64,000 nt of DNA from Agaricus subrufescens. Lineage: Eukaryota; Basidiomycota; Agaricomycetes; Agaricales; Agaricaceae. Under the pieces are notes generated by a model, which worked only from the letters and a program-made list of their open reading frames with translations, was not told where the DNA came from and did no database searches. Location of the stretch: assembly GCA_029945375.1 (NCBI GenBank), contig CM057062.1, forward strand, positions 62,001 to 126,000. The letters run 5' to 3'. This document shows positions 17,597-62,577 of the stretch, piece after piece; the stretch's first letter is position 1; every line of letters starts with the position of its first letter. A program made the translations under genes and the position numbers.

Positions 17597-20500
17597 TTAT
17601 GAAACTAATAATTGCTCAATTGTCGCATCAACTCCGAAATCGGTATCATCGTCATCATTAGAGCTCCAGCCACTATTCAGAAGATCATAGAGTGATAGTT
17701 CTGCCTCTTCTGAGTGCTCTGCGCTGTCAGAGATAAGTTTAAGCCACGTAGGATTCTCGTAATTGAAGAGGTCAGAGATTGGAATAAGAGGGAACCTCGT
17801 TATGGAACTTGGTTGGGGTGGTGGAATTGTTGAGGGCACCGAAGTTGAAGGATTGATGGTAGAAGTCGAAGGTAGAGAAGAATTGGATACTGGTGTTGCT
17901 TGAATAGGAAATACCGGATTATTGTCTCTTGCATCATCAATCAGTTGGGATTGATAAGAATCGATTAAATCCCGGATTATTGAAGGTGGCGATGTTTCAT
18001 TTGCATTATCGGTATCTGTTGATAGTCCATCCTCTTGGGATATATCATTAAAACCACTCAGTAGTGGAGGATCAGACGATGGCAGACTGGATGCTGACCC
18101 TACTGGTGCAAGGGGCCTTGTTGCATCAGTTGTGGCCGGGTTTTGATCTCGAAGTCGCTTTGTCAACCACTCTCTTCTATTTTTTTCCCAAAGATGCTCG
18201 TCACAAACCTGAAGAGCAAGCTCACTAAGATTGGAAAGGGTACTGTTTCCCATGCGGTTGCGAAGTTTTGTGAGTGTGTTTCCGAATTTACTGAATAATC
18301 GTTCACAGGATGCGGAGTTGGCCGTGATGGAGAAAAGACGGCGTGCAAAGATTAGGAACGATGATTCCGGACTTCCACCGAGATGGAAACTTTGAAGAAT
18401 AGCATTTGGATTTGGTGCACAATGCTAGATAACAGGTATCAGCTAACGTCTATGAAATTTTGTGATGTATTTACCTCATGGGAAGCAATTGTAAACTCAA
18501 TATCAATTGAGTCTTGGAGGTTTGCGAAGTTATTGGTACGCCGTAAATAATTTACAGCATCCACAGCAAACTCGATAGATGGATCAGCAGAAAAGAAGCG
18601 CTTGTAGAGCCGCTTCAATAGGCCCAAGGCACTAGCGAGATGGAGGCCAGAGGATTTGGAAAATGGAGTAAGCTGGTAAAAAGGATGGACAATAATAGCT
18701 GCGATAAATGGTTCTTGATCAGCTTTTGCCCACCGAGCCTCCAAACTTTGAAGAATTGTTTGACATGCACGCATGTCTTCAGAGCTTTCAACTTGAAGGT
18801 CGCTATAGATATAGTGCAGATATCCAAATGTGAGAATCACCGTGTCGAGACAACAAAATGCTGCCTGAACTGTATTTATGGCTGCTCCAAGTGGTTCAAG
18901 ATGACGAATAACTCTAAAAATAAAAATAAGTATCTCGAACAGGTAAAACATTGAATGTAATTGCATACTGTCGCATACTATCCCAGAAGATTGGATCTCT
19001 GATAATCGCTACCATCTGAGCGGCTTTATCTTTTGCCGTCTTGTCACCCCTGATAAAAAGCCGATCCTTTTCCGATCTCCCCATTTCTGTAGCAATGACC
19101 GCACAAAGTAGACTTTCAATCGCTACAAGTCGCTGATAAGCACGAAGATGGGCAGTCCATCTTGTGAGAACCGGTCGAATGATTGTAGTTGGGTGTTTAT
19201 TTTGTCGAACCTGCTCTTCTTGAATCAAACCGAGTAAAAGTGTTTTGCTTCGGAGCCAGGTGATCAGATGCTTGGCATTTTCAGTGTGTTTGATATGTGC
19301 GCAACCGTTCTTGAAATAATCACCAACAATCAAATTTATCTGTAGACAGAATAAGAAAGTGAACTACAAAGTACAGGTAGCACTGACCTGGTGGGCGTAG
19401 CAGTCAAGTACAACCACACTCGGGAATTTCTTGACAAAATCACGCCGAGCTTGCCTTGTCTCACCAGACGCATCCGTGGTGATTGCTACGACTACAACAT
19501 TCCAATCTTTCTCAACCTCATGGTAGACAGCGGTGAGAATCTCTAAAAATATTTTTGCTGTCTTGCGACGAGTGGTTACATCAACGACTTTGACAGTGTA
19601 TATCTATTTTAGTCCAAAGATTGTATTAGCACAATTCAATACCTATATTCTGATTGGTAGATGTACCTTTGTAATGAGAGTGATCATGAACGCAATAAAA
19701 TGGCGGTTGTTTTTTGCTGTCCATCCATCAGCCTGTAAGGTTACAAAACCACCGGTTGTAGATTTCTTGTTGATAGCTTGAATGTGCTTGACAAGACCAG
19801 GAATTATTCGGTTTGTCAAAACTTTACGAGAAGGTATTTGTGCTGCCGGAGCAAGTTCTTCAATGAGTGCAATAAATTCCATGTTCTCGATCCAAGACAG
19901 TGATAACCCAGCTGAGGCAGTGATACGAGCGAGCCGGTATTCAAACACCTGCTGTCGTTCTGCAGTCCACGGAATGCTAGGGCTTTGGAGATGGATATTT
20001 GAATTAGAACCTGATCGAGTGAGGCTACGTGAACTTGCAAAGTTCATGATCGAGCTTGATATATGAGGTGATGGTTGCGGTGTTGAACGTCCTGACAAAA
20101 GTAGTGGACTCAAATCGGGAGTAAAATGCAAACTTGAGCTACTGTTGGAGCCGAGAACCTGAACAGCCGGGGTTGAGATTGGCGGAGTAGAGGTAGAAAC
20201 TGAGGGGGTAGAAGATGGGAGTGATACCGCAGATGTTTGTACTGTTAAAGGAGGGGTTGAAACAAGTGACTCGGAGGGTGTACTTGGAATAGTTGGGAAT
20301 GATGGGACCGATGGTATAAATCCACTCGAAGGACCCCCACCAGCCTGCCAGTGCGTCTGAAGTGAGGAATGAGCCAGGGCCATCTGAAGACTCCTTCCAA
20401 CACGTCGAGTGCGGACAGGTGAGTGTCCGGTTGATTTTGTTGCAGATGGGGAGTAATATGCGGCCAAGCGGACTTCGGTCTCTTGCAGTGGACAGTTAGC

Positions 20501-21095: not shown

Positions 21096-21097
21096 TA
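21096..21097. repeat. Inner-element target duplication, left (TA)
   Basis: TA here and at 35,747-35,748 flank the inner inverted repeats. An equally good reading is AT with the element starting one base further in. Confidence 0.55.
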
Positions 21098-21110
21098 TGT
21101 CGGAAATTTC
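21098..21110 (+). repeat. Inner terminal inverted repeat, left
   Basis: TGTCGGAAATTTC, exact inverse of 35,734-35,746. It is followed within 90 bp by TATTTAGGTAAC and TACCTAAATAG-like motifs that recall the TTAGG motifs of the right end. Confidence 0.75.
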
Positions 21111-21480
21111 TAAACGGGGTATTTAGGTAACACCCCCTGAATTACCCTTTAAAGGCCTTGCCGGCCAGCATGAGTACCTAAATAGTTACCGTAACTACAA
21201 TAACGTCTTTTTACCAGACTGTACGTACAATAATGTTTGGTCCTGGCTAAATAGATCTTATTAGAGTAAACAGACCTTAATAGTACATTTGTTTTCAATC
21301 AATGTCACAATGTATGATGTTCGCATCACGTATATTTAAAACATTGTAAATAGACGTATGATAATATTCCAAAAAAAGATACCGCTGCAAGCTACAAGTC
21401 TTCTCCTTAGATCCATAAACCAAGCATAAAATTCAACGGAAAGGTATGATGCAGGCTCTACACAGGTCAATCAAGACGAC

Positions 21481-22146
21481 CTAGTGTGAAAGATATACGG
21501 AGAATGCATAATTTCCTTCAACTTGTTGTTCCCCATGATAGGATGCCTTTTTTATACCTCCTTGGAAAGACGCTGGGAGATTCAAATCCTTTGGTGCGTG
21601 TATGCCCCCCACATGGCGACCGTGGTTGTCAAACACCCGAAGCGTTGCGTGCGAGTGGTTCGAGACGGAACAGAGGGAACCAGAGCGGTGAAACCCACAT
21701 CTGGTAGAAGATACGTGACAATGATAAAAAAAAAGACTAGAGCGAACGACGAACCTGATTTGGGCCCAAAGAATGCCCGAAACCTTTTTTTTACTCGCGT
21801 ACTTCGCGACCTTTGGCCACATCTCCTTTATAGAACGCGTGATAGCGTCATCCAACTCTGCCGTGTCTGTGCTCGTTGTCGTAATTCGATAAACCCGGAT
21901 GATTCGCTGTTCCGGTCCAGCCGTCGATATAGGGACCGAAGTGAATGAAGCCCAGCGAATGAGATGTCGTGGGACTCTGTATGAGTGTGTGCGGACAAGT
22001 TTGTAGAGGTCTCGCATTGTGTGCGGCGTGGAGGAGCCAAGCGACAGTCGATCTGCGTGTGAGGAAAGAGAATGACAAACACCAGTACGCACCTTAAGTT
22101 TTAATAAAGACCCAAACAATGGCGTACAAACGTCGCCAAGAACCAT
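21481..22146 (-). CDS. Hypothetical small protein inside the inner element
   Basis: A 221-codon open frame starting MVLGDVCTPLFGSLLK. An internal stretch of about 100 residues (RVPRHLIRWASF to KKVSGILWAQIR) looks protein-like, and a candidate intron (about 21,705-21,765 on the plus strand) joins it in frame to CGFHRSGSLCSVSNHSH. The start region is less convincing: another GT-AG pair (GTGCGT..ACGCAG) would shift the frame. I do not recognise a family. It may be a real cargo gene, a degenerate gene, or chance. Confidence 0.35.
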   Translation of the reverse strand: MVLGDVCTPLFGSLLKLKVRTGVCHSLSSHADRLSLGSSTPHTMRDLYKLVRTHSYRVPRHLIRWASFTSVPISTAGPEQRIIRVYRITTTSTDTAELDDAITRSIKEMWPKVAKYASKKKVSGILWAQIRFVVRSSLFFYHCHVSSTRCGFHRSGSLCSVSNHSHATLRVFDNHGRHVGGIHAPKDLNLPASFQGGIKKASYHGEQQVEGNYAFSVYLSH

Positions 22147-22880
22147 GCTAACCCTTCAGTTTTCCAGATCCCTTATGGAAGCTAACCAACCCACAGTTCA
22201 GCCTTCGTTACATGTGTTTTGTACAACTACGGCGGCGCAGCGACGAGGACACAAGAAAAGGTGCGCGATTTGGTCGTTCAGAATTAGAACAACGCTTCGC
22301 AAAGAATATCCAGTGTGTATTTGCTTAGCAGGTTACTTTGAAAGAGTTGAGGGCGACTCGGAAGGCTAATTCATACGCTCTATGGGGCAATAAGAGCCAT
22401 GGAGGGAGCGCTTCGAGGGTACACGCCGGAAGTGAATTTGATACCAGTGTTTATATTCACCTAAACGGCCAAAGCAGTCAGCATTTTTAAACAGGAAAAG
22501 GACTTACATTACCAACATGCGAGTACGTTTGGCCTCTTGAACTCAGGAAATCAAACGCGAACGTTCATAGGGTTCAAGGCCAGCTTATAGCACCACTTCC
22601 GCTGTCGCTTGCTGAAGACCTGCCAAGTACTATATTTAACATTGTGTAATTACTAGAGAAAGATATAAGAGACATTAGCAGAAGATGAGGTGAATTGAGC
22701 TGAACAATACAAACTTACCACAAGTGACAATGCATTGAATGCGTCTGGTGAATATTATGATAGTAACTACGGCATTAAACAAGTACTAGTTTTAAATTAC
22801 CCCGAGTCTACATGTAAAAACGCCGGCCAAACAGTCCAAGAGAAAACGAACACGTAACGAATATACAATGATCCCAAGCT
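22147..22880. other. No gene recognised
   Basis: Between the small open frame and the end of the 893-aa gene; AT-rich, nothing identified. Confidence 0.5.
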
Positions 22881-25665
22881 TTAACCACAGTATGTATTGA
22901 TAAAATCCGTTGACCACCTTTCAACAGCTGCAGTGACCCTTCTACCTTCCCCAAATCCTCGCGTGTTGACCCGCCACTGCGTCGCTGTTAACAGAAGCCT
23001 GGAATTAATTACATTTCCTTCATTGATGATCGAAGCCTCGCGCTCCTTGAATTGATGCTCTAACCGCGCATGCCAGCGTCCTTGATCGGCCCCGCCACCT
23101 TCAAACGTGCTAACGAGAGGAAACCACGATTGCTTCTTGATGTTATTACCAGACCCTACAGCATACGTCAGTATTAAATGCTAAGTGTTAATGCATTTCT
23201 GAACTTACCAGGAAAGCTTTGGTAGATACCACACAGGAGGTCAAGTTCATCAACAGTGAGGTCATCGTCGACATATTCTTTTCCGTCTTTATCCCACGCA
23301 CAAAAATTCAAGGCGGGATTTTGGTGCAACCCCGAAGGCCCTTTCAATGCTTCGCTAACCCCCACGCCCTCCGCCAAAGCTAACCGACGAACATAGCCAC
23401 CGCGTAAAACTGCGGCACGGCCGCGCCAAGATAGTAAAATAGACTCGCACCTCTGCTTCCAGAAGTCATAATCGTTGCGGGTGAATACGTGATCCGAGAA
23501 TACCATTGAAATCATGGAGCATGGCAAGTCATCACGCAAAACCTTGAGACCAATTCGTCTGGATAAAGTGCGAAACGGGACTCCTGCCAGAACCAGCTCG
23601 ACAGCAATGTCCTGGTCATTGTAAGTTTCGGGAAGACGACAGATCATGAGGGCGGCGGTAGCGGTGTACACGGCAATGCTCCAAGTGACAGTTGACAAAT
23701 CACCAAAATCAAACATATAGAGGTTTGTCTCGCCCCCTCGAACCCGTTTGATGGATCGCAAGCGGCGGCAAAACTTGAGAGGAGCAGGGGAATTGGGAGC
23801 CAAGTCCCAAACAGCGGCAGGGGGGGTTCTTCTTTCCTTGTTGTCTAACTGTAGCGCGAATTCAATGAAAGCTTTGCCCATAGGTGTCGCCCATAGGGCG
23901 CTGTTGATTTTGACGAGGGTTGTACCGGTGATGGCAAGGAGGACTTTGATGTCGGCGAGTGGCGCCAGTAGACCTTCCTGCATTGACAGCCCATGGGGGG
24001 GTATGAACCCATAGAACTTGGTAAGTATTTCCAGCACTTCCAGACGCGACCGTTCCTTCTCATGCACAGGCACGGGCACCATCGCATTGTGCAGAGAGGG
24101 AGGGGGAATTGCTGAGCCAGCAGTAGATGGTGGAGGGAATGCAGAGCTGGATGTAATCAGAGGAGCCTTCGCCGGTGTGGGGATTGGGGATTCGTGCCGC
24201 TCAGCCGAAGCTGACTCACGGTCTCCTACAGTTAATGTGGCGGATAAAGCCTGCTCTTCTTCGTCTGAAGACTCGTAAGTATCATCGACCCATTCTTCGC
24301 AGATATTCCACTCATTGCAGAAGGCATCGTAGCGGGCCTCTCCCGGACGGGCATCTTCCAAGGTCTCACCGCGGTCACGCTTGGGAACCAGAGTTCGTGT
24401 GAACTTCGGCGGAGTATCCAAGTTCCAGTCCCAAACATACACTGCAGCACTTGCAGTAGGAGGTGTTCTTTCGCGGTTGAGCCTACTTTGACGAGCTGCC
24501 GGGCTTTCTTTGAGGAGCATCTTTTCATGACGCTCTTCATGCTCGCGTAGAAACGGTCCCCAAACAGCTTCTCCTGACTTGACAACGGATCGGAGCCGAC
24601 CATCCTTCCAAACTACTTTGCTCAGTTGGGAAGGAGAAGACGGGTGCGGAGAGGAGGAGCGGATAGGAGCGGAATCTGTGGCGGTAACAGGAGGTGGGCT
24701 GACCGGCATGTACTGATACTCTGTCGGAACATATGAGAAGATTGTAAACTTAAGACCACCAAAGACGTACCGTTCAAGAGCATGTCGTCCCATTCATTTT
24801 GAGTACTGTAGACAAACGAAGGCGGGGCAGGGGATATGACGGTTGTAGCGGCTTGAAGTATTTCAGGAGGGGGTGTCATAAACGGGAAGTTGAGATGCTG
24901 GCTTTGTGCAACCTCTCTACGACCCCAGCGATACCATACCGGTACTCCGCAATGGTCCAACCACGATGGCGACGGTTGAGAGGGTTGATCATCGGGGTTA
25001 TGTAGAAAAACACCTGCCCTATTTGCATCCCAAAAGCGCTGGAGTAAAGGGGCACAGCGCAAAGACTCCCAAACGCTGATTCGACTCTTATCCCACATCA
25101 CCAAGATTTTGTACCACTCTGTCGGAGAGATACCCTCCAGGTATTTTGGATCTTCCGGTACCATCTTGAGCATCCAGTACAACAAGGCGATCCACATCGC
25201 GAACCAATCGCGTCCTTGATGGGCGTAGTGCCACGTCTCGCCCTCTGAAGGATGACTACTCGTATATCCCCATTTTTGTGTTGAATATGGCGCCAGGTAT
25301 TCTATATTCCACCGCCGAGACAAAATGCCCAATACTTCAGTAATTAACGTCTCAACGGCCAACCATCGGTTCTGAGAAAGAAACGGCAGCATGCGTTGGG
25401 TATTTTCAGTATTTACGAGCAAGTGTCGGGGCATGTAGCCGAGGTCTTCCACTAAGGCGCCATTCCAGCACACAGGGCGACGCGGCACAAAACCTAACCA
25501 CGGCATCTTGGGCGACCACCAATACGGCTCCTCAAATTTATCCACGCCAACGTTATTAAAAATTTTGATGTCGTCTTCAAGCAGTTCACCAGGTAACTGC
25601 ACATCTCTGCTACAGTTGGGCGAGTAGTATATATCGCCCCCAATAAGATAAGCGCGGCCTGGCAT
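22881..25665 (-). CDS. Conserved Agaricomycete protein of unknown function (893 aa)
   Basis: Three exons: 25665-24771, 24720-23209, 23155-22881; phases join cleanly and total 894 codons. I recognise the pattern of a large, lineage-expanded Agaricomycete family with no known function: an N-terminal region rich in Trp and aromatic residues (PYWWSPKMPWLGFVPRR, HYAHQGRDWFAMW), a basic stretch ARQSRLNRERTPP with VYVWDW, ARYDAFCNEWNICEEW followed by an acidic run, and C-terminal motifs NLYMFDFGDLSTVTW, DIAVELVLAGVPFRTL, GRAAVLRGGYVRRLAL, KGPSGLH, YVDDDLTVDELDLLCGIY, WFPLVSTFEGGGADQGRW. No catalytic motif is evident. It lies divergently from the TET/JBP gene, 834 bp away, inside the transposon, so it is probably cargo or an accessory transposition protein. 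The family assignment is from memory and was not searched. Confidence 0.8.
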
Positions 25666-26499
25666 CTCGCAGCACTTTTACAGCTATGATTTCCTTGAGA
25701 GTGGTCGTTCGCAGACAGCCCGAGAACGAAAGGTGGTTGTAGTTCGCGGAAGCCCGTGAACTTGGTTATAATGGTGATCCCAGAAGCCCGAGATCAATGA
25801 GAGTGCGGGTGTACGGTGATTGCGCGTTGTGAAAGCGATCGCTACACCGACAGATGGCAGAGCGCGGTAAAGAGGGCTGCCATCAAGCAATGATCGGAAC
25901 GCACGTGGTCCGTTTCGTTGATCCGGCCCGAGGCATACGTGACGAGTGACCGCAATCATTGCTCTCTGTGTATGCCTCGATGCACGTCCTCTCACCCCCG
26001 ATTTCACTACCCTCTGGTAGCCCTGGTATATACAACTTACCGTCTATATCTATAACGCACACTCACCCTCTCCTGCCCCTAGAATATATCCCTGGCCGAC
26101 GTGGATCATCATGGCGGTGCTAACCGTCATTTTCCTTCATTTTCTGGCGCTGGGCTTCCAGTGTCTCACATTGACTATAGCGGGCTTCTGCTATAACACT
26201 CTCCTTTCAACCTTTCAAGCACGCTTGAATCTGGATCACACGTTGCGGCAGTCCACGTCTCCTGATATCTCGGTCTTGTTCGCCTCCACGCAACGATCAC
26301 CGATGCGGACGCAATGTGGATGACGTAGCGGGCGATGATGGCCGCATTTTTCTTTACATCAACGCCCGTGTAAGTGGTATAAAAGTTGTGGTAGTATTGA
26401 CACACATTGCACCCTCAGCTGACCAAAGACTACTCCTCGGACCTAGTCAGCCATTGCACCGGTGCAGTGTGTGGATATCTACTACTACAGTCCTACCGC
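25666..26499. promoter_or_regulatory. Divergent intergenic region of the 893-aa and TET/JBP genes
   Basis: 834 bp separating two divergent start codons. TATA-like runs lie near 26,020-26,055 and 26,081. A 70-codon open frame begins at 26,111 but lacks coding character. Shared promoter function is an inference from layout. Confidence 0.4.
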
Positions 26500-28042
26500 A
26501 TGACATCCACACCGCAATATGTAGTCAGCACGGTCAGTTCCATTATCATTCGATGCTCTTTAGGTTATATTGATAGAGTACTTTCATAGACCCGTCGCGG
26601 GCGTGAATATGCGGGAACCGTGTGCTACACGACTTTCCCAAAGCAGCATCTCGTCCACCTTCTGCAAAAAGCGGTCGAGTTAGAGGACTCTACAGCGGAG
26701 TTTCTCGCCCGTGAAGATGCCGCACCACTGAGGAAAAGAGCTCCATCCCCAACCCCGTTAGATGACAATGAGGCCCAACGAGAACCGCTTAATGATTTAT
26801 CGCCCCCCACTGCTCGAAAGAAAAACGGTTCACACTTACGTCGCCAAAAGAAAAAAATGTTGAGGATGGATGTCCTACGTAAAGAAACGCTTGTGCTCAG
26901 TGCACCGCCAATGAAATCGACGGTGTCTTACAATGCAGACCACATGAAAGTTCAATCTACCGGTTATTGTGCCATGACAGGACAGGAGTCTTGTACGCCG
27001 ATGGATTTGGAAGGATTACGAAATGCAGGATACGTCGTTCAATCTTGGGATGGTACGCTTTAAGTTTCTATACAGCTGGCCCCCCGTCTTACTTTTAAGC
27101 AGGTATACAGCCTCTACCCCTAACCGATGATAGCGGCACCATATATGCCGTTTTTGCTGGGAGACCGAACGCTGAAGACTACCTCGACTGTTGTCACCGC
27201 GTGTTTGAGGCTCTTGCGGACATGCCAGACCGCATCAACTTTTCTGCTAAACAGCTCTACCATCGCCGGGGTAACTACCCCTCGGCAGATTTCGGAATCA
27301 CGGCTGATCAAGGCCAGCCTGAACCGGTAAACTTACATGTTCCGTCGAACATCTCCGAAAGGGCCGGTCGTATAAGTAATTGTCTGGAGATGGCGAGAAT
27401 TGTGAAGTTCTGTGACAGTAGGTGGATCCCTCTTATTTGCTCATACTATCACTGACGCCTTATTTAGCCTCTTTCCAAAAATGGGCCCCACGTTTGCATG
27501 CCTATTACGGGGAAACAATGAACAAGCTAGTCAAGCATCCAAAATATAGCCAGCTCACAAAACCTAGTCCACATTCCGTCTTCAGCTCTATGTCTCACAA
27601 CTATGGCCGTTCCGTGGTTACAGTTCCCCACCGTGATTACAAAAATTTGGCTTTTGGATGGTGTGCGATAGTAGCTTTAGGAGAGTTCGACAGCCAAAGC
27701 GGCGGCCATTTAGTGCTTCACGAACCGCGCTTAGTGGTAGAATTTCCCGCAGGCTCAACCGCTTTGATTCCGTCCGCGGTTTTAACCCACAGTAATGTTG
27801 CCATTGGGCCTACTGAGTGCAGAGCGTCGGTGACGTTTTATAGCTCTGGCAGCGTCTTCCGGTTTGTGGAGAACGATTTCCAGACGCTCACTTCACTCAA
27901 GACTCATGATGTAGGAGAATATGAAAGACGGCGGGGAGAAATGAAAGGCAAATCCGGCAAGGGACGGTGGGAGATGGGCTTAGAATTATATAGTACAATA
28001 GATCAGTTGAAGGATGGTGTCTTTGGGACACTATCTTTGTAG
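26500..28042 (+). CDS. TET/JBP-family 2-oxoglutarate/Fe(II) dioxygenase (461 aa)
   Basis: Fungal TET/JBP enzymes oxidise 5-methylcytosine in DNA using Fe(II) and 2-oxoglutarate. Exons: 26500-26532, 26590-27052, 27103-27417, 27468-28042; total 462 codons. The first exon is only 33 nt (MTSTPQYVVST); I propose it because the large second exon has a stop upstream and no ATG in frame, and the splice restores an open frame at phase 0. The catalytic double-stranded beta-helix is complete: VPHRDY gives H325 and D327, LTHSNV gives H378, and R389 in ECRASVTFYSSG is placed to bind 2-oxoglutarate. SGGHLVL and VVEFPAGSTALIPSAV are the typical strands between. The N-terminal third is basic and low in similarity (RKKNGSHLRRQKKK), perhaps for DNA binding. 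Association of such genes with KDZ-type transposons is described for Agaricomycetes; here the neighbour is a Plavaka-type transposase. Confidence 0.87.
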
Positions 28043-28234
28043 GGTAGCCTATCGGTCACCCACCAAGTAATAGTCATTTCAACAATGGACGCTTATTGTC
28101 CAAGGTATCCCGGCCTTCCTCTGTCTGACAGCCTTTCGCTCACGCTATCATAATATCTAATCGATGTGGCAGTATCAGCAATCAGTCACGCGCCCATTTC
28201 TTACGCTTGTTCTTCACAATACTACGCTATCAAA
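28043..28234. other. Short spacer between TET/JBP and the transposase
   Basis: 192 bp, same-strand neighbours. Presumed terminator of one gene and promoter of the next; nothing specific recognised. Confidence 0.4.
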
Positions 28235-31200
28235 ATGGAGCGCCGCTGCGACTTGTGTAACAAACGTTTCAATGCTCAAGGGTATGGCAGACATCGCGTA
28301 GCCTGTCTCAGGGCCAAGAACAATGAAAAGGCCGCAAATGCCCTCAGAGAAGAAGGTACGCTAACTATCTGCGTAATGGTTCATTTTTGGGATTTACTGA
28401 GTGGCAATGCATAGGTAAAGCACATACATATTCAATTAGAATCAACACTCTCATCTTGAAAAGGAATTATCGGAGCGATCAACGATGGTAGGGAGCCAAG
28501 CATGCCATCGTCGCGCTCTAACCCAGTTGAGTATCTAAGAGGAGGTACGATGTATGAGTAAGTCATTCTATCGAATCGTTGCTTCAGTCGATACTAATCG
28601 TTATTTTTTCCATCCGTACAAGAAACTCCAATTCAGTTTTCAGTCCGTTTGGCCTAGATCTAGCAGCTGCACAATTCCAGAATGTCGGTGAACATCATGA
28701 TAGAGGCAATACGGTAGATTGTACTACAGTAGATCAAAACCCGATTGACTGTAAGTCAAAATGAAACGGTTAGCTGCTATGTAAATTAATATGTTCCAGA
28801 TGATGCGGCCCAAGAAGATCTGCCGTGCTATCCTTCCGGAAAGGTAATGGAAGACATTCCAGAGATTGATTCTATCTACACCGAGTACCACCCCTCTTCC
28901 GGGCGGTCACCAGAAGTCAAACCACTGCACAAGTACAACTATAGACGATTTCCAAAAACGGTTCCAGTTGACCAGCCATGGAAGCCATTCAGGACGCGCC
29001 TGGATTTTGAAGTTCTAGAGTTAGCGATGGAATTGGGATTAAATGACCAACAACTCAAAAAATACATCAGTCTTTTTCATCGAGCCATAGCGGCAGCCGG
29101 GAATGAGGAGGAGAAGTTTACGGTGCAAAGTTCAAAAGAAGCGACTAACCTATGGGCGCTGGCATCTGTTAGACTTGTGAAGGTAAGTATCAAACAATCT
29201 GTGTTATTTTTTCTCTGTTGCTTACGCATTATCCAGTTTCAAAAAGTCATAATTGAGCAACAGTATCAACAGGAGAAAGAACCACGGTCGTTCCAGTTCT
29301 GGTACCGGGAACCATGGGACTGGGCACTGGAGATAATAACTGAACCTCGTTTCAAAAATCATATTGTCTGGGATCCGGAGAGGAACTACAAGTGGGACGG
29401 GGCGACTTGGGAGCGTATTTATGATGAACCATGGTCTGGCGATGCGTGGTGGCGTGCTCAGGTGAGTCTCTAAACGATTTATTGATGTCAAATCGGTTAA
29501 CAACAAAGTGATTAGACGATGCTAATAGACAGTGGAGCGCCAGAAGGATCTAAGCTTGTACCGCTAATTCTGTATGCTGATAAAAGCAAGCTATCATCAT
29601 TTGGTACCACAATGGGCCACCCAATTATTGCTCGCCTGGCTAGTCTTCCTGCTTCAATCCGGAACAACGTGGGTGTTGGGGGAGGAAGTGTAGTCGGTTG
29701 GCTTCCAATTGTATGTATTGTTTACTAAACATGAGACTAAGTGTCAGCTTTTTTGCTCTAGGTCAAAGAAATGACATCCGAAACCGGAAAACCTGCCTTT
29801 GTCCAATTCAAGCATGCGGTATACCATTCGTCCTTCAAAAAATTTCTTGAAAATGTTGCTAGGCTGTCAAACGTGGGCTCGAATACTAAGTGCGGCGATG
29901 AGATATTCCGCTCTTTGTGGCCGTTCATCCTCATATTGGCGGCGGACTATGAAGAATTGTAAGTAATTTTGCCCTCATCCATTGTTTGCAGCTCCGACCT
30001 TACATCGTACAGTTCAGTTATGACCCTCATTCGTGGGCATCAAGGTCTATTTCCCTGCCCCGTGTGCCTCGTTCCAAAGAAAAATCAATGGAACCTGTCA
30101 CTCAACTTTGAGTCACGCACGCAAGAAGACACGAAGAACTTTTTTTTTGAAGGAATCACTTTACCAACACGAGAGTTGCGGGAGCAACATTTCAAATCAA
30201 AATCACTTCGCCCTGTCGAGGTATGTGTTGCACTAAATACGATCAAATCAATTTAATACGATGGTCGATTAATAGAATGCCTTCTGGTCTGTCAACTTGA
30301 CAGATTTACACTCAGCAGTATCTTATGACTGCCTACATTCGGATGATAACGGGTTATGGGAAGATCATCTATTTCCCATCTTCAAGAACCTTGCAAAGGA
30401 ACTCGGCCGTGCGGCAACATCTAGTATTGATGCTCAGTAAGTCCCTCATTGCGATTTTGTCCACCTTTACCCTAACTTCTCGTTAGTTTCCGTTCAGTAC
30501 CCCGATGGAACAATTTGAATCATTTCGATTCTGTGATGAACATCACGTTTAACGATGGATCTAAAAACAAGGATATATCAAAGGTATGAATGAAATCAAT
30601 GAGCGTTTTCAATAGCTTCTTACAAATCCTTTTTAAAAGATCTTTTTGTATGCGTCGCAAGCTATTTTTACCCGCGACCGAAACTCTGCAGGATATTACC
30701 TTCTTCGCTGCCTTCGACATTATTTGAATGTCAGGATGTATGCCGATTTTGATTTACACACTGAGTCGTCACTGGCTGCCGCTCAAGTTGAACTCGAACA
30801 AAACCTTCACCTTGCTCTCACGGTAGTCAAATTCGTTTGGTCTTCAAATGGCATCTACTTACTCCTTCATCAGGACTACTTTAAATTCATCGGAATCTTT
30901 GATGCTTTGACCGCTGGGGTTATGGATGAGCAAACTGATCAGAAATCATGGAACTTTCCAAAAATACATCTCCGAAAACATCTTGTTCACGATATCCGTG
31001 ATAAAGGAGTAACAAGAAATTACAGTACCAAACCAAATGAGAAGATGCATGGTCCAATTCGAAAAATCTATCACCGCCGAACCAACTTCAAAGATGTATC
31101 CGATCAGGTATCTAACATTGATCTTGACTAACCCTGTTCAATGTTCTAACTCATTAACAAATGACAGATTCTTCGCGCTGTCCATCACATTAGCGTTTCC

Positions 31201-32178
31201 CAGTCCATACGTAACGAGCTGAACCTCCTAGATGATTGTCACAAGTCAGAGAGCTCTTCTACTGCCGATAGTTCATCAGAATCTGATTCAGGTTCGTATC
31301 ACTACTTCCACTGAGTAGATGAATCATTGAAACGATTTTAGATGATGAAGACTTGACGTCAAGCTCAACTTCCCTGACACGTCAGCTCAATTACCAGGAC
31401 TTTACGAACTACCGCAAGCTCAAAGCACCTCAACCATTATGCTCATTTGATGAATTTGAGGCGTTACATAAGAGCGACGCATTTTTGTCATTCCGGACGC
31501 GTCTAGCTAGCTATTTGAGGAGCAATCTTTTAACGTTCGGCATCACCTTACCAATTGGGGCACAAAGATTGGTGTTAAAAGGTTCCGACAAGGTAAGACT
31601 TTTGGAATATATATATAATTACACTCATCGTCTGATATCTAATCAGTTAATGGAATGGCATTCACTTGAAGTTCAGTATACCTGTTCTGCGGATTGGGAA
31701 CTCAAAGCAGACATTTTGAGGTGTAACCCTTGCTTCCATCATCATCCGCGATATGATTGCATCCTTGTTCAAAAGAGTCCAATTGACTCATTTTTTGCCC
31801 GGCTCCTGGCTCTATTCACGATCACTATCAATGATCATAATCTTAACCTAGCCTTGGTTTCACCATTTGAGCCTGTATACAAACACCGAAACCGTAAAAT
31901 AAGCGACAGGGAACTAGAACTACTTCGACTTCGAGAAACTTCGGCAGCCAACACCACATTTGTGTCTATTTACTCAATCATTCGAGGCGCCGTCATAATC
32001 CCATCTGGAGAAGAAGCTACTAGTCATGCTTCGGACCATCTTCTATTTGATGTGCTAGATGCTGATATGTTTTTACGCAGTCGGGAGATCTTGGGAACGT
32101 AAGTTTGCAATTTATTTGATATTGATCATACGATAATTCAATATTGTCAGTCTTCAAACAAGCGCAGCAAATGATTGA
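28235..32178 (+). CDS. Plavaka-type transposase (about 1043 aa)
   Basis: DNA transposase of the fungal Plavaka group, related to CMC/KDZ transposases. Fifteen exons: 28235-28355, 28464-28557, 28623-28750, 28800-29182, 29237-29461, 29516-29710, 29762-29958, 30013-30220, 30276-30436, 30487-30583, 30640-31107, 31168-31291, 31342-31592, 31647-32098, 32151-32178. Every junction keeps the frame. N-terminal zinc finger with C5, C8, H20 and C24. Group landmarks: WDWALEIITEPRF, LYADKSKLSSFGTTMGHP (D339), VVGWLPIV, FVQFKHAVYHSSFKKFL, ILAADYEE, LIRGHQGLFPCPVCLVP, NAFWSVNLTDLHSAVSYDCL with LHSDDNGLWEDHLF, PRWNNLNHFDSVMNITFNDG, and NEKMHGPIRKIY near residue 740. The acidic residues in these motifs are likely metal ligands (inference). 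The C-terminal exon is least certain. Confidence 0.88.
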
Positions 32179-32701
32179 TCAGGATAAAGTTGACGGAGGA
32201 TTTATTGTTGTGAGTTCCCTTCCCACGTAAAATCACTTGATACATTTTCTAAGCATAACGTGCAGACCATGCAGCCGTTTAGATAATAATAAGATTGATA
32301 TCATGACATTAATGAAACTGGCAAAATATTGACTACCATAGCTCGGTAAGAGTTTTGGAGGTAGTTTTATGTCAAAGCTTGTGCGCATTAGGGGTCATTT
32401 AGCTCCCTTGACAGTAAGAATGTTATCGAAGATCTTAACTCATTTGAATAATCCGCTTACAGCGGGCATGTAATGCCATTACTATACACGCAAATCAGTG
32501 AGATCTCACTGATATGCGGAAACGCCAGAGGTAATTGTATTGACAGGTGAGTAGGTTGGGACACTGATATTACTCCCGCTCCCACCTAACGGCCCGAGTG
32601 TCGCACGTAGATGCCGGGGAAAACTATTTAAGAACGTTCAAGATCATGTCAGCCAGTGCCCATTCTCACATCACAGTCGCACTTTGGAACGTACACACGC
32701 A
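32179..32701. other. Spacer, no gene recognised
   Basis: Follows the transposase stop. An open phase reading FKQAQQMIDQDKVDGGF overlaps the transposase's last exon in another frame; a small indel there could have changed the natural C-terminus. The rest is upstream sequence of the 595-aa gene. Confidence 0.4.
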
Positions 32702-34847
32702 ATGCCTGTGTCCAGTACCGCATCAAGCTCTCAAACAGCAACAACAATTGCAAACTTGCGAGCTGTATGTCCCATTCCATGGGTTTTGATCTTGATTGGA
32801 AACATACTTACCGACATTTGTTGACAGGCCTTGATGGATTCGCAAGCTGCTGCTAGCATTTCAAACGAGGAAGTCCAGTCTCTTCGTCTGATGAACGCTA
32901 AGCTAGAAGCAGAGGCCGCAGCGGGTCCCAAGAAAGGCAAGGGAAATAAGAAGCTTGCTCCCAGCTCTGTTCTTGAAGAGTATTCCGACGAACTTCGTAA
33001 ATTTGCAAACATGTTTACGCTAATGGACTTTCCTTGGGTTGAGCCCAAAGCATTTTTGCAGCCCCGCCCTCTAGTCCCAACCTTACCACCTGATCAACGC
33101 TATCAAGACGATGCCTCGACACTGTTGCACATACGACACCGCCTCTATGATAGTTGTCCATCTCACTTATGTATCTACATTGAGAAATTAGGTGACTTTG
33201 GTAGCAATGTAAGTGCAAGTTTCGAATTCGCTGAGCTTGTTTATTGACATTTTGTTCTCTTAGTTCTTGTTGTATCAATCAATCCAGCGTTCAAATGCGA
33301 TAACAAAGATTCACCGACATGCATATGATATTCTCTCCTCCCAGTTTCCCGACATTACTCGAGATCTATGTGGTACCGCAGCTCATGGGTCCCGCGCTGC
33401 AAGTGACGTCTGCAAAACCCTATACTTACATAAAGATTCAAGGGGAAACTTTAGCTTCAAAGAAATCCTGGCACCGATCATATACAAGGAGTGTATAGTT
33501 GACGCAAAAAATATCTTCCAAAATGAAGTTCTTTTTCAAGTATGTTTATTTATTTGTTAGTTTCATTGATAATTCTTAACAAATTCATTTCTCTCATTGG
33601 ATTAGATCGGCCTTCTAACCCTTTTCGGTCCTTCGGCTCTTGCTGGTACAATTGCGAAGAACAGCCAAGGCCGGAGATGGAAACTCAAAGGAGTTTCTTC
33701 GGGATTCATTGCATGGTGTTGTATTGTGGTAAGTAATTTGTATTGTCATATCTGTAGATAGTCTGTAATACTGACATTCTCTAATAGGCGATATATATAT
33801 TATCACCCGATCGTCAATTCGAGGAACATGGACCAGACACAGATATTGATTATAATGCTGCCTTCCTGGAATACAAGGAACGGATCGAGAAACACGAAAA
33901 CACCGCCCTTTTTGGCCAGATCTTCCAGAAATGGAATCGGCGACTCTTCAACTATGAGGAATCCGCCACTGCTGACGAGCATCCTTTAGAGGCGGAAGAC
34001 ATTACTGCACAATCCACTATGATTGATGCTGCTTTAGCTGGGGACAATGTTGAAATGGAAACGACTAACACCCACTTTTCTTTTGAAGATGCCAATTCTG
34101 GTATATCCTTCCGGTCTGGACCGCGTGGTGAGTACTTCCTTGTTTCAGCTGAGAATTTCTTTCATTTTGACACGGTTATTAAAATCTAGAAACAACCTGT
34201 ATTCACTTACCCCCCCAATCTGGGGTAAATGAACCTCCTGCATGCGCCACACCCGTCACACCTGCCACACCTACCACACCTACCACATCCGCCGCATCCA
34301 TTGCATCTGCACCCATCGCACCTATCGCGTCTGCCGCACCCGCTACATCAGCGAGTGCTGCGTTAGTATCATCGTATATGCAGTCCATTGCTCCTTCACT
34401 TCTTCCGTCGCGGTCAGGATCCGTCATCTCACTCAATGACCATGAGCCAGATGATTTATCAGGTGATGATTCTGGATCCGATACTAGATCCAACGCCGAT
34501 AAACAAGGTAAGTCTTTGTCATCGCTGATTTCAATTTGATCAGAATCTCAATTCCATTAGATACGGTGGTCACCCGCAACCCGGGTTTGCCCTTCAACGC
34601 TGCCCCTATCGTGCCTCCGCGTCGTCTTACTCCTTCTCTTCCTACTGCTCACTCAATCTCTCAAATGGGCAACCAGCATATCAATGTTACTCTCAGTGCC
34701 CAAATGAACAACTTGACGGTGGTTACACCAGAGGATAATGCCATTGAAAAGCAACCTCGTAAGGGAAGGAAGCCGTCAAAGAGAGGTGGTGGTATCACAA
34801 ATCAGCAGACCAGGCGCAGCACCCGCATTAACAATTTGCCTAATTAG
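32702..34847 (+). CDS. Transposon-associated protein of unknown function (595 aa, DUF6698-like)
   Basis: Seven exons: 32702-32764, 32828-33208, 33264-33539, 33606-33728, 33788-34127, 34190-34507, 34561-34847; 596 codons, all phases consistent. N-terminal basic linker (GPKKGKGNKK), then a globular region of about 300 residues with ILAPIIYKECIVDAKNIFQN, LLTLFGPSALAGTIAKN, VSSGFIAWCCIVAIYILSPD, YNAAFLEYKERIEKH and WNRRLF. This layout recalls Agaricomycete proteins grouped as DUF6698, an assignment from memory. An Ala/Pro/Thr repeat region (34,240-34,350) and a basic tail (RKGRKPSKRGG, RRSTRI) follow; the tail could be a nuclear localisation signal. It is the last gene before the right end of the inner element and is co-oriented with the transposase, so it may be an accessory protein. 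Confidence 0.75.
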
Positions 34848-35746
34848 TCGATATTGTAACCCAATGTGATTGGATTTGATTTGATTTGATCATGATTTAT
34901 AAGCCTGGGAAGATCAGGGCTTGTGGGAATTTATGTTGAACAACTCGGGTATTTTAGGTTGTTCGTCTTTTCGCTCCTTCTTTCACCATCTCCACCGTCC
35001 CCCACTTCTTTTTGACCACTTACCTTCTCTGTCTTCTCCCCATGTCAGTAAGTTCAACATCCTATGATACAAATCTATTATCCTGATTGTTGTTTTTAAT
35101 AGTGCACTATTTTGCCTTCACCACGCACAATGAGGAAAACTAGGTACGTCTTCACCCACTGTAAAATGCTCAATACTAATATAATGTTGTTAGGTACGTC
35201 CTTCCATTTGAACTTGTCTATGTCAAAGTCAGCATCACATCCATGTCGTTGTAGTCAGCAGTTGCTTATTGTTGAGTACCGTGAAGCATGTATTTAAATA
35301 TTATATAATCTGGAGAAAATAAAAAATATTATGTAATATGGAGCAACCAAAACATTATATAATCTGGAGGCGGCACAAAAAAAATACCCGACATTTATAT
35401 AGGCCCTGAAACATAAGCTAAACAAATGCCATTATGGTGGGCTGTTTAGGCCTTTTTAGGCTTTCATGATATCGGATAAAACATCTTATTAGGGCCATTT
35501 TAGATGTCGTACTTGGCTTATTAGGCAACCTCCAGAAATGAAAAGGGTCTTATTAGGGTCCTACTGACCATTTTAGATGGCCTACCCGACATATTAGGTA
35601 CTCATACACCTTATTGGGCAACCCCTGTCACTAAATAGGGCTCTTGGAATTCTAAAGAGGAAACGTTTTGCTGTTTAAGCCTAAAAAGACCCTTAACCTA
35701 AAAAGGCTTAATTAGGCCTAATCACGTTGTTAGGAAATTTCCGACA
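34848..35746. repeat. Non-coding right end of the inner element with subterminal repeats
   Basis: No gene. Contains ATTATATAATCTGGAG twice (near 35,302 and 35,353), CTTATTAGG-type motifs at 35,485, 35,517, 35,549 and related ones at 35,591 and 35,609, CCATTTTAGATG at about 35,496 and 35,569, and CCTTTTTAGGC with its inverse CCTAAAAAGG. These are spaced by about 30-75 bp and suit a transposase-binding array. Confidence 0.65.
35734..35746 (-). repeat. Inner terminal inverted repeat, right
   Basis: GAAATTTCCGACA, inverse of 21,098-21,110; followed by TA, the presumed target duplication. Confidence 0.75.
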
Positions 35747-35968
35747 TAGGTAGCCTAGGCACAATTCTAGGGACAAAATTCGGGTGAAACGGTTGTCCAC
35801 CTTGCTGAACTTCTATCTTATCACCCAAATCAGGTTCAATCAATATATTCAGAGTCCGTGGAAACATCAACTCGTTAGTTGATGGTGGCATCGGTCATTG
35901 ACTAGTCAACGGTAAAATGAACCAGTCACGTTGACCTATCAATTGCCAGGTGACTGGTCAGTGACCGA

Positions 35969-57570: not shown

Positions 57571-57885
57571 TGTCGAGACATTACGCAGATAGGATATTGA
57601 TCGGTCCAAAACGGAATATCAATCGAGCTGAGAGCGCGAGTTAATGAAACTATATTTGGAAAATAGATAATTTACCTGAGAGCGCGAGTTAATGAAACTG
57701 GGCTCTCAGTACATTTTACTAGACTTATATACTACGAGTAAAACAGTATTATAAACATTATATCATAGAGAAACATGTCGAAAACATTATATCATTATTA
57801 CAAAGGATGACGGCACAATGAATCAGAAACAAAAAAAGGAGAAAAATTAAACCTTAGTGAGATATTTCAGCGTCATATTTCGACA
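57571..57885 (-). repeat. 3' LTR of the Copia element
   Basis: 315 bp, TGTCGAGACA to TTTCGACA. Contains a 24-bp direct repeat beginning CTGAGAGCGCGAG at 57,628 and 57,676. Confidence 0.95.
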
Positions 57886-60800
57886 CTCCCACTCGCAGTA
57901 ATATCTCGGACTACACCGAGTTGATCCCGAAAATTTTCAAAGACTTCCCGAGGAAGAGCTTTAGTGAAAATGTCGGCGAGCATTTGTTTCGTCGTTACAA
58001 AATTAAGCTTGATGGTCTTTTTGGCCACATGATCACGTATAAAGTGATAACGAATGTCGATGTGCTTGGCGCGTGTGTGTGAAATCGGATTTCCAGCTAG
58101 AGCAATACACCCGAGATTATCCGCATTGATAATAGTCGAAGTGGGTTGTGGAAAATCCAATTCATCAAGGAGTGAGCGAAGCCAAATAGCCTCTTTGGTA
58201 GCATTCGAAGATGCTATGTACTCTGCTTCGAGTGTTGACGTGGCAATATTCGTCTGCTTCTTTGATGACCAGGAAACCGAACTGTTGTCAATGGAAAACA
58301 CATAACCACTAACTGACCGTCTGGTGTCTGAATCCTGTGCCCAACTAGCATCACTCCATCCTACAAGGTTTACCGCTCCCGCACTTCGTTTGCCAAGCTC
58401 TAATCGAAAATTTGAAGTCCCTTTAAGATATCGAAGAATTCTCTTGCAAGCGCTCAGGTGTGAAATGCCTGGATTCTTCGAAAATTGTGAAACGAGTCCG
58501 ACCGCGAATTGTATGTCTGGACGAGTTTGTGTAGCGAAAATTAATGAACCGACCAAGGATAAGTAATGAATGCCACGAGAATACTCCTTGTATTCATCGA
58601 GCTCTGTTGACGTCGTGGGAGATCCAGCTATAGATAGATTATGATTGACAGCGAGTGGTGTGGAAACTGGATGTGCATCCTTCATTCCAAAACGGTCGAG
58701 CATTGATTCAATGTAGGAAGTTTGACTGAGATAAATGAGACCGCTGGTTCGGTTACGAACAACACGAAGCCCAAGAATATACTTTAATTCTCCAAGGTCT
58801 GTGATTTCAAAATTGCTTGCCAAATTGTGTTTGAATGTGACGATCCTGTCGAAACCCGGTCCGGTGACAGCCATGTCATCAACGTAAACGAGAACAATAA
58901 GGACAATGTCCCCTTTCTCGCGCAAGATATAAAGGCAATCGTCTGACCTTGTGCGCTCAAAACCTAATTTCATCAAAACTTCGTCTAACCGTTCTTTCCA
59001 TTTCCTACCCGCTTGCTTCAAACCGTACAGTGCCTTCTTTAACCGCCAAAATGTTCCGCTACTTTTGACACCTTTAGGAACCTTCATGTATATTTCTTCA
59101 TCCAAATTCCCTTCGAGATATGCTCCAACAACGTCAATCTGTTGAATATCCCAATTGTGGATTGCCGCGAGAGTGAGAAAAATTCGGAGTGAAGTAAATT
59201 TGGCAACCGATGAAAATGTTTCCGTAAAGTCGATTCCAGGAATTTGTGAGAACCCTTGTGCGACAATTCGGGCCTTGAACTTGGCATGATTTCCAAACTC
59301 GTCCAACTTCTCCTTTAATACAACTTTACCTCCCACTGCTTTCTTTCCCTCCGGTATGCCATTAACATCCTCAATTACTCCCCTGTTGACGAGTTGCTTA
59401 TATTCAGTATTGATTGCCCTTTGCCAATCCCTAGCGTTTGAGGAGTTTAATGCTTCATCGAGAGACGGTCCACTTGCAATAAATGCCATGTGAGTACTTT
59501 CACCATACCGTTCCGTTCGCTTTCTCAAACGAGTAGAAGCATCACGTTTGGGTAAATCAACCCATTTCTTCGATTTTCGAGGTGCAGGTGGAACGTTGAA
59601 AACAGGACCAACATCGGAAATAGAATTTTCCTCTCTAGCTGTGACAAAGTCAACTTCAGACGATGCCGAAGAGGGAACGTGAGGGGATGTGTCTTCTCTA
59701 TTAGATGTTTTGGGAGGTGTTACTGGCAGGGTTTCAATAGGAGGAAGGGATGCGGTTCGAGTTTTTGTTAAAGGTAAGCGATAATTTTCATCGTCATATT
59801 CCATTGCTGAATCAATCATTTCGTTAACTTCCTCTTCGTTAGATTGAGTGAGGCCCAAATCGAATGTAGCCAGCTCGCTAGGCATGTCGTCCTCGCTGAA
59901 GTCAACATCAACAGAAGTGATTAACTTTCCTGATTCCAGATCTTCGAGACGATATCCCTTTGTTTCATCTGTCCACCATCCAAGCATACGAACTCGAACA
60001 GCCCTAGATTCCAATTTCCCTTCACGAACTTCCTTCGGAACTGTGGCCCAACCCAGAGATCCAAAAATTCGAAGATGCGATATATCAGGTTTTCGTCCAG
60101 TCCATGCTTCGTAGGGAACTTTCCCTTTGAGGGCGGAGGTCGGAGTGACGGAACGAATGTGAACAGCATACATAAATGCTTCACCCCAATAACGTTTGTC
60201 GATTTTGGATGAATGAATCATGCTTCTAACCATTTCGAATATGATGGCTATGGCACGTTCGGCAATTCCGTTCTGTTGGGGTTTAAAAGGTACAGTAGTT
60301 TCGTGAAGTATACCATTTATGCGGCAAAATTCATTCATTTGCTTGTTCACGAATTCCCGTCCGTTGTCAGATCGCAATTTCTTGACTTTAAGGCCCGATT
60401 GCCGTTCGAGAATAGCAACAAGATCGCGAACAGTTGATCCAACTTCGTCTTTTCCTTTCAACAATCTCCCCATTGGATAACGACAACTCGCCTCAACAAC
60501 TACGAGAGCATACCTATACCCATCCCATGTCGGTGGATCAAAAGGACCAGTCAAATCCATGACAACCATTTCCATTTTTGAAAATTCTGTGGTACTGGAT
60601 TTTGGAAGGGTGAAATGTGGAGCACGAGATTGAACACATCCACCACAGAGACGATCATAGTCTCGTGGTACCTGTACGTCAAGTCCTTTAACCAATTTGC
60701 GACTGACCATTTCGCTAATACGATCAGGATGAATATGACCTAATCTCCGGTGCCATAAACGCATTGACTTTGCACTGGCGACGTAAGCAATATGTTGCTT

Positions 60801-62273: not shown

Positions 62274-62577
62274 TACGCAGATAGGATATTGATCGGTCCA
62301 AAACGGAATATCAATCGAGCTGAGAGCGCGAGTTAATGAAACTATATTTGGAAAATAGATAATTTACCTGAGAGCGCGAGTTAATGAAACTGGGCTCTCA
62401 GTACATTTTACTAGACTTATATACTACGAGTAAAACAGTATTATAAACATTATATCATAGAGAAACATGTCGAAAACATTATATCATTATTACAAAGGAT
62501 GACGGCACAATGAATCAGAAACAAAAAAAGGAGAAAAATTAAACCTTAGTGAGATATTTCAGCGTCATATTTCGACA
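62263..62577 (-). repeat. 5' LTR of the Copia element
   Basis: 315 bp, same sequence as 57,571-57,885 on reading both. Confidence 0.95.

Follow-up and report, generated by a model that had tools for sequence, protein, structure and literature searches.

The transposon and its genes

The stretch analysed here, called the window, comprises 64,000 nucleotides of Agaricus subrufescens (assembly GCA_029945375.1, contig CM057062.1, positions 62,001 to 126,000 of the forward strand) and corresponds to C6:62001-126000 in the surveyed genome of 44.65 Mb and 44 contigs. It contains a complete Plavaka-type transposon at window positions 21098-35746, which is 14,649 bp long excluding the target site duplications (TSDs) and carries genes for a TET/JBP-fold dioxygenase (hereafter TET), a Plavaka transposase and two further proteins designated A and D. 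The features of the element, read from the sequence, from a motif count (the TTAGG/CCTAA cluster) or from splice models (the genes), are as follows.

21096..21097: left TSD, TA
21098..21110, + strand: left terminal inverted repeat TGTCGGAAATTTC, 13 bp, exact
22881..25665, - strand: gene A, 893 amino acids (aa), 3 exons (25665-24771, 24720-23209, 23155-22881)
26500..28042, + strand: TET/JBP-like dioxygenase, 461 aa, 4 exons (26500-26532, 26590-27052, 27103-27417, 27468-28042), HRDYKN motif
28235..32102, + strand: Plavaka transposase, PF18759, CPVC motif, 15 exons and 1015 aa or 16 exons and 998 aa
32702..34847, + strand: gene D, 587 aa, 7 exons, DUF6698 (PF20414)
35349..35748: subterminal TTAGG/CCTAA cluster, 11 of the element's total of 25
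35734..35746, - strand: right terminal inverted repeat, 13 bp, exact
35747..35748: right TSD, TA

An earlier note on this DNA had described 13-bp inverted termini with TA outside both and four open multi-exon genes between them; the termini proved to be exact, and the genes, with 3, 4, 16 and 7 exons, are open in the window copy. The splice models were built without transcripts, with GT..AG introns and with a gene finder that evades stops by adding introns. Exon 12 of the transposase (30640-31107) very likely contains an extra 51-bp GT..AG intron at 30823-30873, and the 1015-aa version, which includes 17 residues of this likely intron, was used for Pfam, the homologue searches and the tree. 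The transposase matches PF18759 with an E-value of 5.1e-50, passing the cut-off, and KDZ (PF18758) is not among its matches at E<=1. Gene D matches DUF6698 (PF20414) at 2.3e-7, whereas a Pfam search with the full models of the other two proteins, A and TET, gave nothing at E<=1. A fold search of PDB and BFVD with a homologue of gene A (P0050) gave no convincing match. The closest protein matches come from Agaricus bisporus, with identities of 59% for the transposase, 61% for gene A and 48% for TET.

Genomic copies and insertion sites

With two mismatches allowed, the terminus occurs four times in the window against 2.24 expected, which by itself is unremarkable, so the case for a transposon rests on the further genomic copies and not on this count. 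The exact 13-mer was found seven times in the genome (the reversed control twice), and six of the seven are ends of the window element family. A genome search with both ends revealed four more full-length copies, namely C3 (16,498 bp), C5 (16,528 bp), C9a (16,498 bp) and C9b (16,199 bp), and all five copies share the gene order A (reverse), TET, transposase and D. The proposal of a single mobile unit with defined ends and a Plavaka transposase is thereby borne out, its termini not being unique to this locus and its four genes recurring together. The ends read TGTCGG..CCGACA in the window copy, C3, C5 and C9a, and TGTTGG..CCGACA in C9b. In the three copies tested, 10-12 of the 25-28 TTAGG motifs per element are clustered in the last 400 bp at the right end. 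C3 is 99.86% identical to C9a and 99.1% to C5 at the nucleotide level, and the window copy shares 84% with C3 over the longest aligned stretch; such near-identical copies suggest that the element has been mobile recently. Two orphan left ends were also located, at C38:1879 and C5:2339575, and no right end was found for either. An identical 13-bp terminus at C4:1113466-1113478 (L002) adjoins different internal sequence, and a search with a single pattern found no partner end for it within 20 kb.

A perfect 2-bp TSD flanks all five copies, being TA in the window copy and CA, AG, GA and CA in the remaining four; the target is therefore not TA, as had been supposed, and the TSD consists of 2 bp of variable sequence. 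C9a is inserted in a protein kinase gene, the motif halves of which lie at C9:292055-292144 and C9:308639-308704. Four nearby same-strand kinase paralogues align unbroken across the insertion junction, and the 50 residues rejoined across it match PF00069 at 3e-08. This is the comparison of filled and empty sites that the earlier note had called for, made through paralogues within one genome and not with a second strain. The interrupted gene belongs to a one-strand protein kinase gene cluster at C9:287727-313270.

The large size and the several multi-exon genes would fit segmental duplications of a host locus merely holding transposase-like genes. However, the copies terminate in TGTCGG-type ends (TGTTGG for the left end of C9b), every site bearing a perfect 2-bp repeat, the ten 200-bp flanks compared with one another show no similarity at 1e-3, and the C9a insertion lies within a kinase domain that is unbroken in the paralogues. 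We give this explanation next to no credence and reject it.

A 221-aa open frame near the left end of the element, at 21481-22146 (- strand) and of doubtful coding status, was considered as a fifth gene and rejected, being alike in C3 and 0.44-0.53 identical to C9b, with several frames equally alike.

Selection on the four genes

All four genes are open in four of the five full-length copies, C9b being the damaged one. The transposases of C3, C5 and C9a show apparent frame-shifts relative to the 15-exon model and are open once the intron 30823-30873 is allowed, whereupon none of the window exons contains a stop or a frame-breaking change in these copies. The indels in exon 2 of the C9a TET add up to a multiple of three, gene A was modelled as a single 835-aa frame in C3, C5 and C9a, and gene D is open in C3, C5, C9a and C9b. 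The ratio of nonsynonymous to synonymous substitution rates (dN/dS) among the window copy, C3 and C9b, calculated with a Nei-Gojobori script that omits poorly aligned codons and with C9b models that skip its stops, is 0.08-0.19 for each gene, therefore all four are kept by selection; for A and TET it is 0.08-0.15 at dS of 0.5-2.2. The codons kept in these pairs, out of those of the shorter protein, number 663-797 of 830-835 for A, 309-411 of 441-461 for TET, 867-934 of 960-1015 for the transposase and 436-546 of 542-573 for D.

Fold and active site of the dioxygenase

By sequence, the window TET found no TET among its PDB matches, and the fold search made with its A. bisporus homologue clearly supports a double-stranded beta-helix of the TET/JBP type, in agreement with the earlier suggestion that such a dioxygenase travels with Plavaka. 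The HxD..H metal triad and the 2-oxoglutarate-binding Arg are present in the TET models of all five copies. Across 53 sequences the acidic position of HxD is Asp in 51, Asn in two and Glu in none, and the element TET lacks the HxE which replaces HxD as the hallmark of the PE type. The third position after this Asp (D+3) is Asn in 53/53 sequences, an offset that corresponds to human TET2 Asn1387, the residue which binds 5-methylcytosine (5mC) and excludes N6-methyladenine (6mA; PMC11040006). The AG-type hallmark, Gly/Ser at CcTet position 331 and Asp at 337, is replaced by Asn and Cys in 53/53, the positions being assigned by their offset from HxD. CcTet is the closest solved structure and shares the TET fold and the HxD metal motif with the window protein, whereas identity in the fold alignment is about 12%, with Asn and not Gly/Ser at D+3 and Cys and not Asp at D+9.

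The most likely task of TET would be to alter or erase 5mC in the DNA of the element. It is possible, though well short of probable, that TET is a real DNA dioxygenase with another substrate or one leaving a lasting protective mark (5-hydroxymethylcytosine, oxidised 6mA, a glyceryl or base-J-like group), so that 5mC is not removed. The relatives sharing the TET fold include CMD1, which transfers a glyceryl group, and CcTet, which acts on both 5mC and 6mA; moreover, the D+9 Cys, invariant in 53/53 sequences, and the R+8 residue, neither His nor Arg, differ from those of TET2 and CcTet. The D+3 Asn nevertheless speaks for 5mC and against 6mA, and no glycosyltransferase Pfam match at E<=1 was obtained for the four proteins, though A matches nothing. 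According to a 2026 review (PMC13297926), the functional characterisation of transposon TETs is still to come.

A transposase core with an attached gene pair

Loci for each gene were counted across the genome and merged by hand, from 30 to 28 for TET, 72 to 62 for gene A, 135 to 70 for Plavaka and 94 to 65 for KDZ, the 15 loci for D being left unmerged; all these counts are lower bounds. The transposase clade was defined by at least 45% identity to one exon, which retained 23 of 43 matches, merged to 17 loci, and dropped 20 at 29-37%. Gene D lies downstream of a clade transposase on the same strand at 14 of its 15 loci and near none of the 57 other Plavaka loci. TET lies within 3 kb of a clade transposase only in the five family members and within 15 kb at two more of the 17 loci. 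With D constant in this clade and TET mostly absent from it, transposase and D therefore form the core, and on this distribution A and TET are an add-on to it.

En/Spm (CACTA) has a two-protein core of TnpA and transposase together with subterminal repeats. The window element resembles it in both respects, whereas the ends and the D sequence differ; by this analogy alone, gene D and the right-end TTAGG clusters may point to a TnpA-like helper.

Of the 28 TET loci, 10 have an oppositely oriented gene A no more than 5 kb upstream, against 0.5 expected by permutation (a contrast inflated by copies), and five of these ten pairs lie outside the window element family. In 300-column bins, identity between the window copy and C9b is 0.51-0.82 over 23.2-28.3 kb (A and TET), rises directly downstream of TET and is 0.78-0.92 over 28.6-35.6 kb (transposase, D and right end), compared with 0.76-0.89 and 0.76-0.97 between the window copy and C3. 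The corresponding dS values for A, TET, transposase and D are 1.33, 2.20, 0.44 and 0.45 with C9b, and 0.52, 0.61, 0.40 and 0.39 with C3; only the contrast between A plus TET and the core is safe, given the near-saturated dS at the upper end and the damage to C9b. The step in identity and the contrast in dS thus indicate a different history for the A and TET part of C9b, which seems to have been exchanged between elements.

Gene A is a high-copy family of about 62 loci, some 25 copies of which are near 70% identity and mostly lack a TET or Plavaka domain nearby. Another Plavaka set lacks TET but is preceded, at a distance of about 3.3 kb and in the same orientation, by gene A (C2:3778265, C10:2234971, C11:324075, C3:1859562 and C3:3857165).

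In print, Kyakuja and Zisupton elements are the carriers of the AG-type TETs of Agaricomycetes, and no transfer of this type between superfamilies is reported in the accessible part of Kojima 2025 (PMC12730594). A TET belonging to such a KDZ (Kyakuja/Zisupton) element nested in the window transposon would fit that pattern. Yet none of the 28 TET loci is within 5 kb of any of the 65 KDZ loci and only one is within 15 kb (1.2 expected), ten have a Plavaka domain no more than 2 kb away against 0.25 expected by permutation (the loci being partly mutual copies), and identity between the window copy and C3 continues with no abrupt change between TET and transposase (0.78-0.97 per bin). Nesting is accordingly very improbable and was rejected, and the window TET, unlike the published AG-type TETs, adjoins Plavaka and not KDZ.

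A second family and the CpG context

A second TET-bearing Plavaka family of the same genome comprises five loci, one extending from C10:611540 to beyond 627000 (L060-L062) and the others on C7, C5, C14 and C2, with TET 1.4 kb upstream of the Plavaka domain and a shared unit that is 96-99% identical. Its right end at C10:611540 reads ...GCTGATG and is PlavakaB-like; the left end was searched for and not found. Within 8 kb, its TET has no gene A and its transposase no gene D beside it. The family 2 TET also has HxD and, represented by one exon in a tree of all 47 homologues and four element proteins, groups with two A. bisporus proteins and the window TET in a single clade (SH-aLRT, the approximate likelihood ratio test, 98, with long branches flagged). 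Its transposase lies across the deepest split from the window transposase, on an end branch of 2.2 that makes its placement unsure. The transposase tree of 62 rows (four elements of this genome, 18 of 30 Plavaka loci with a longest frame of at least 390 aa, and 40 of 120 homologues among 321 found) is biased because all its rows were found with the window protein. The two families thus have a TET clade in common and differ in right end and transposase, so both Plavaka branches seem to carry TETs of this one clade.

A and TET might be captured passenger cargo, useless to the element. TET is missing within 15 kb at 10 of the 17 loci of the window transposase clade, and gene A of C9b has two stops, as would be expected of passengers; against this, the low dN/dS of A and TET, their open frames in four of five copies and the recurrence of TET beside a distant Plavaka transposase in five near-identical copies make the explanation improbable.

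Some Plavaka loci (L046, L047 and L038) are strongly CpG-depleted with TG/CA in excess, CG being 0.06 in L046. A deficit of CG accompanied by more TG and CA is the pattern expected if CpG methylation targets transposons, and points to methylation-linked mutation in this genome. A 5mC oxidase borne by a transposon would act against this.

Elsewhere in the window there are a Copia-type retrotransposon whose gag-pol is a single open frame of 1496 aa (57876-62363, - strand) and, outside the element, a hAT C-terminal dimerisation region (17600-18424, - strand).

Relation to described TET-bearing elements

According to the accessible part of Kojima 2025 (PMC12730594), TET-bearing Plavaka elements have already been published from A. 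bisporus and Gymnopus confluens, solely as PlavakaB with a PE-type TET and HxE; PlavakaB has CATCA..TGATG ends and a 2-3 bp TSD, PlavakaA TGT..ACA ends and a 2-bp TSD. The window family is like these PlavakaB families in combining a Plavaka transposase and a TET/JBP dioxygenase in a single Agaricales transposon, and unlike them, as compared by description, in its TGT..ACA ends, 2-bp TSD and HxD with the D+3 Asn. In ends and TSD it agrees with PlavakaA in 5/5 full-length copies, and differs from PlavakaA as published there in bearing TET. For Marasmius oreades, another work (PMC8290104) states that it shows the ends of KDZ and Plavaka elements in a supplementary figure. Among the listed papers that name Plavaka, Kojima 2025 alone deals, by its title, with TET and Plavaka together. 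This TET type in a PlavakaA-type carrier was not found in the searchable literature, the supplements of Kojima 2025 lying outside that search. The earlier idea that the element may be undescribed therefore holds for the variant, with PlavakaA-type ends, another TET type and the A and TET add-on, and novelty is limited to that, TET-bearing Plavaka being known in kind.

Proposed function of the element

Taken together, we consider it likely that the window element is a recently active, probably autonomous Plavaka cut-and-paste transposon with PlavakaA-type ends and a core of transposase and D, to which A and TET are joined as an add-on that would lift 5mC silencing. In the core, D would help the transposase at the repeat-rich ends. 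In the divergently transcribed add-on, TET would oxidise 5mC and thereby free the element, perhaps other repeats too, from methylation-based silencing, allowing the element genes to be expressed, and gene A may serve the same end, perhaps as a partner or targeting protein. Autonomy, the 5mC substrate, the anti-silencing role and the roles of A and D are all inferences from the sequence.

Several observations, besides the Cys at D+9 and the R+8 residue, weigh against this interpretation. The fold was predicted not for the window protein but for its A. bisporus homologue, with which 66% of the query aligns at 38% identity, and the gene models come from our own finder, with introns added to avoid stops. 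C9b has two stops in A, two in the transposase and a late frame change in TET, and dN/dS is noisy among near-identical copies (0.28-0.92 for C3-C9a, with zero silent changes in TET, and 0.10-0.36 for C3-C5). The transposase clade has the TET-less members mentioned above, and most gene A loci are away from TET and Plavaka. Finally, the CpG values of the family, 0.87-0.93 (0.69 in C9b), are no better than the values, as high as 0.98, around certain Plavaka genes without TET, and hence reveal no protective effect.

As a tentative and rather unlikely extension, A and TET could form a self-contained anti-silencing cassette transferred by recombination from one transposon to another, with A bringing a TET2-like 5mC oxidase to element DNA. 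If true, the cassette would be to fungi what the element-specific anti-silencing proteins of Vandal transposons are to plants. The window family itself extends the range of transposons bearing a putative methylation eraser by a further Plavaka branch and by a TET type whose substrate residue resembles that of TET2, and it points to exchange of the eraser part among the elements of a single genome. TET-bearing copies that are nearly identical occur together with TET-less and CpG-decayed relatives in one 44.65-Mb genome, so the action of a transposon TET against silencing is directly testable there.

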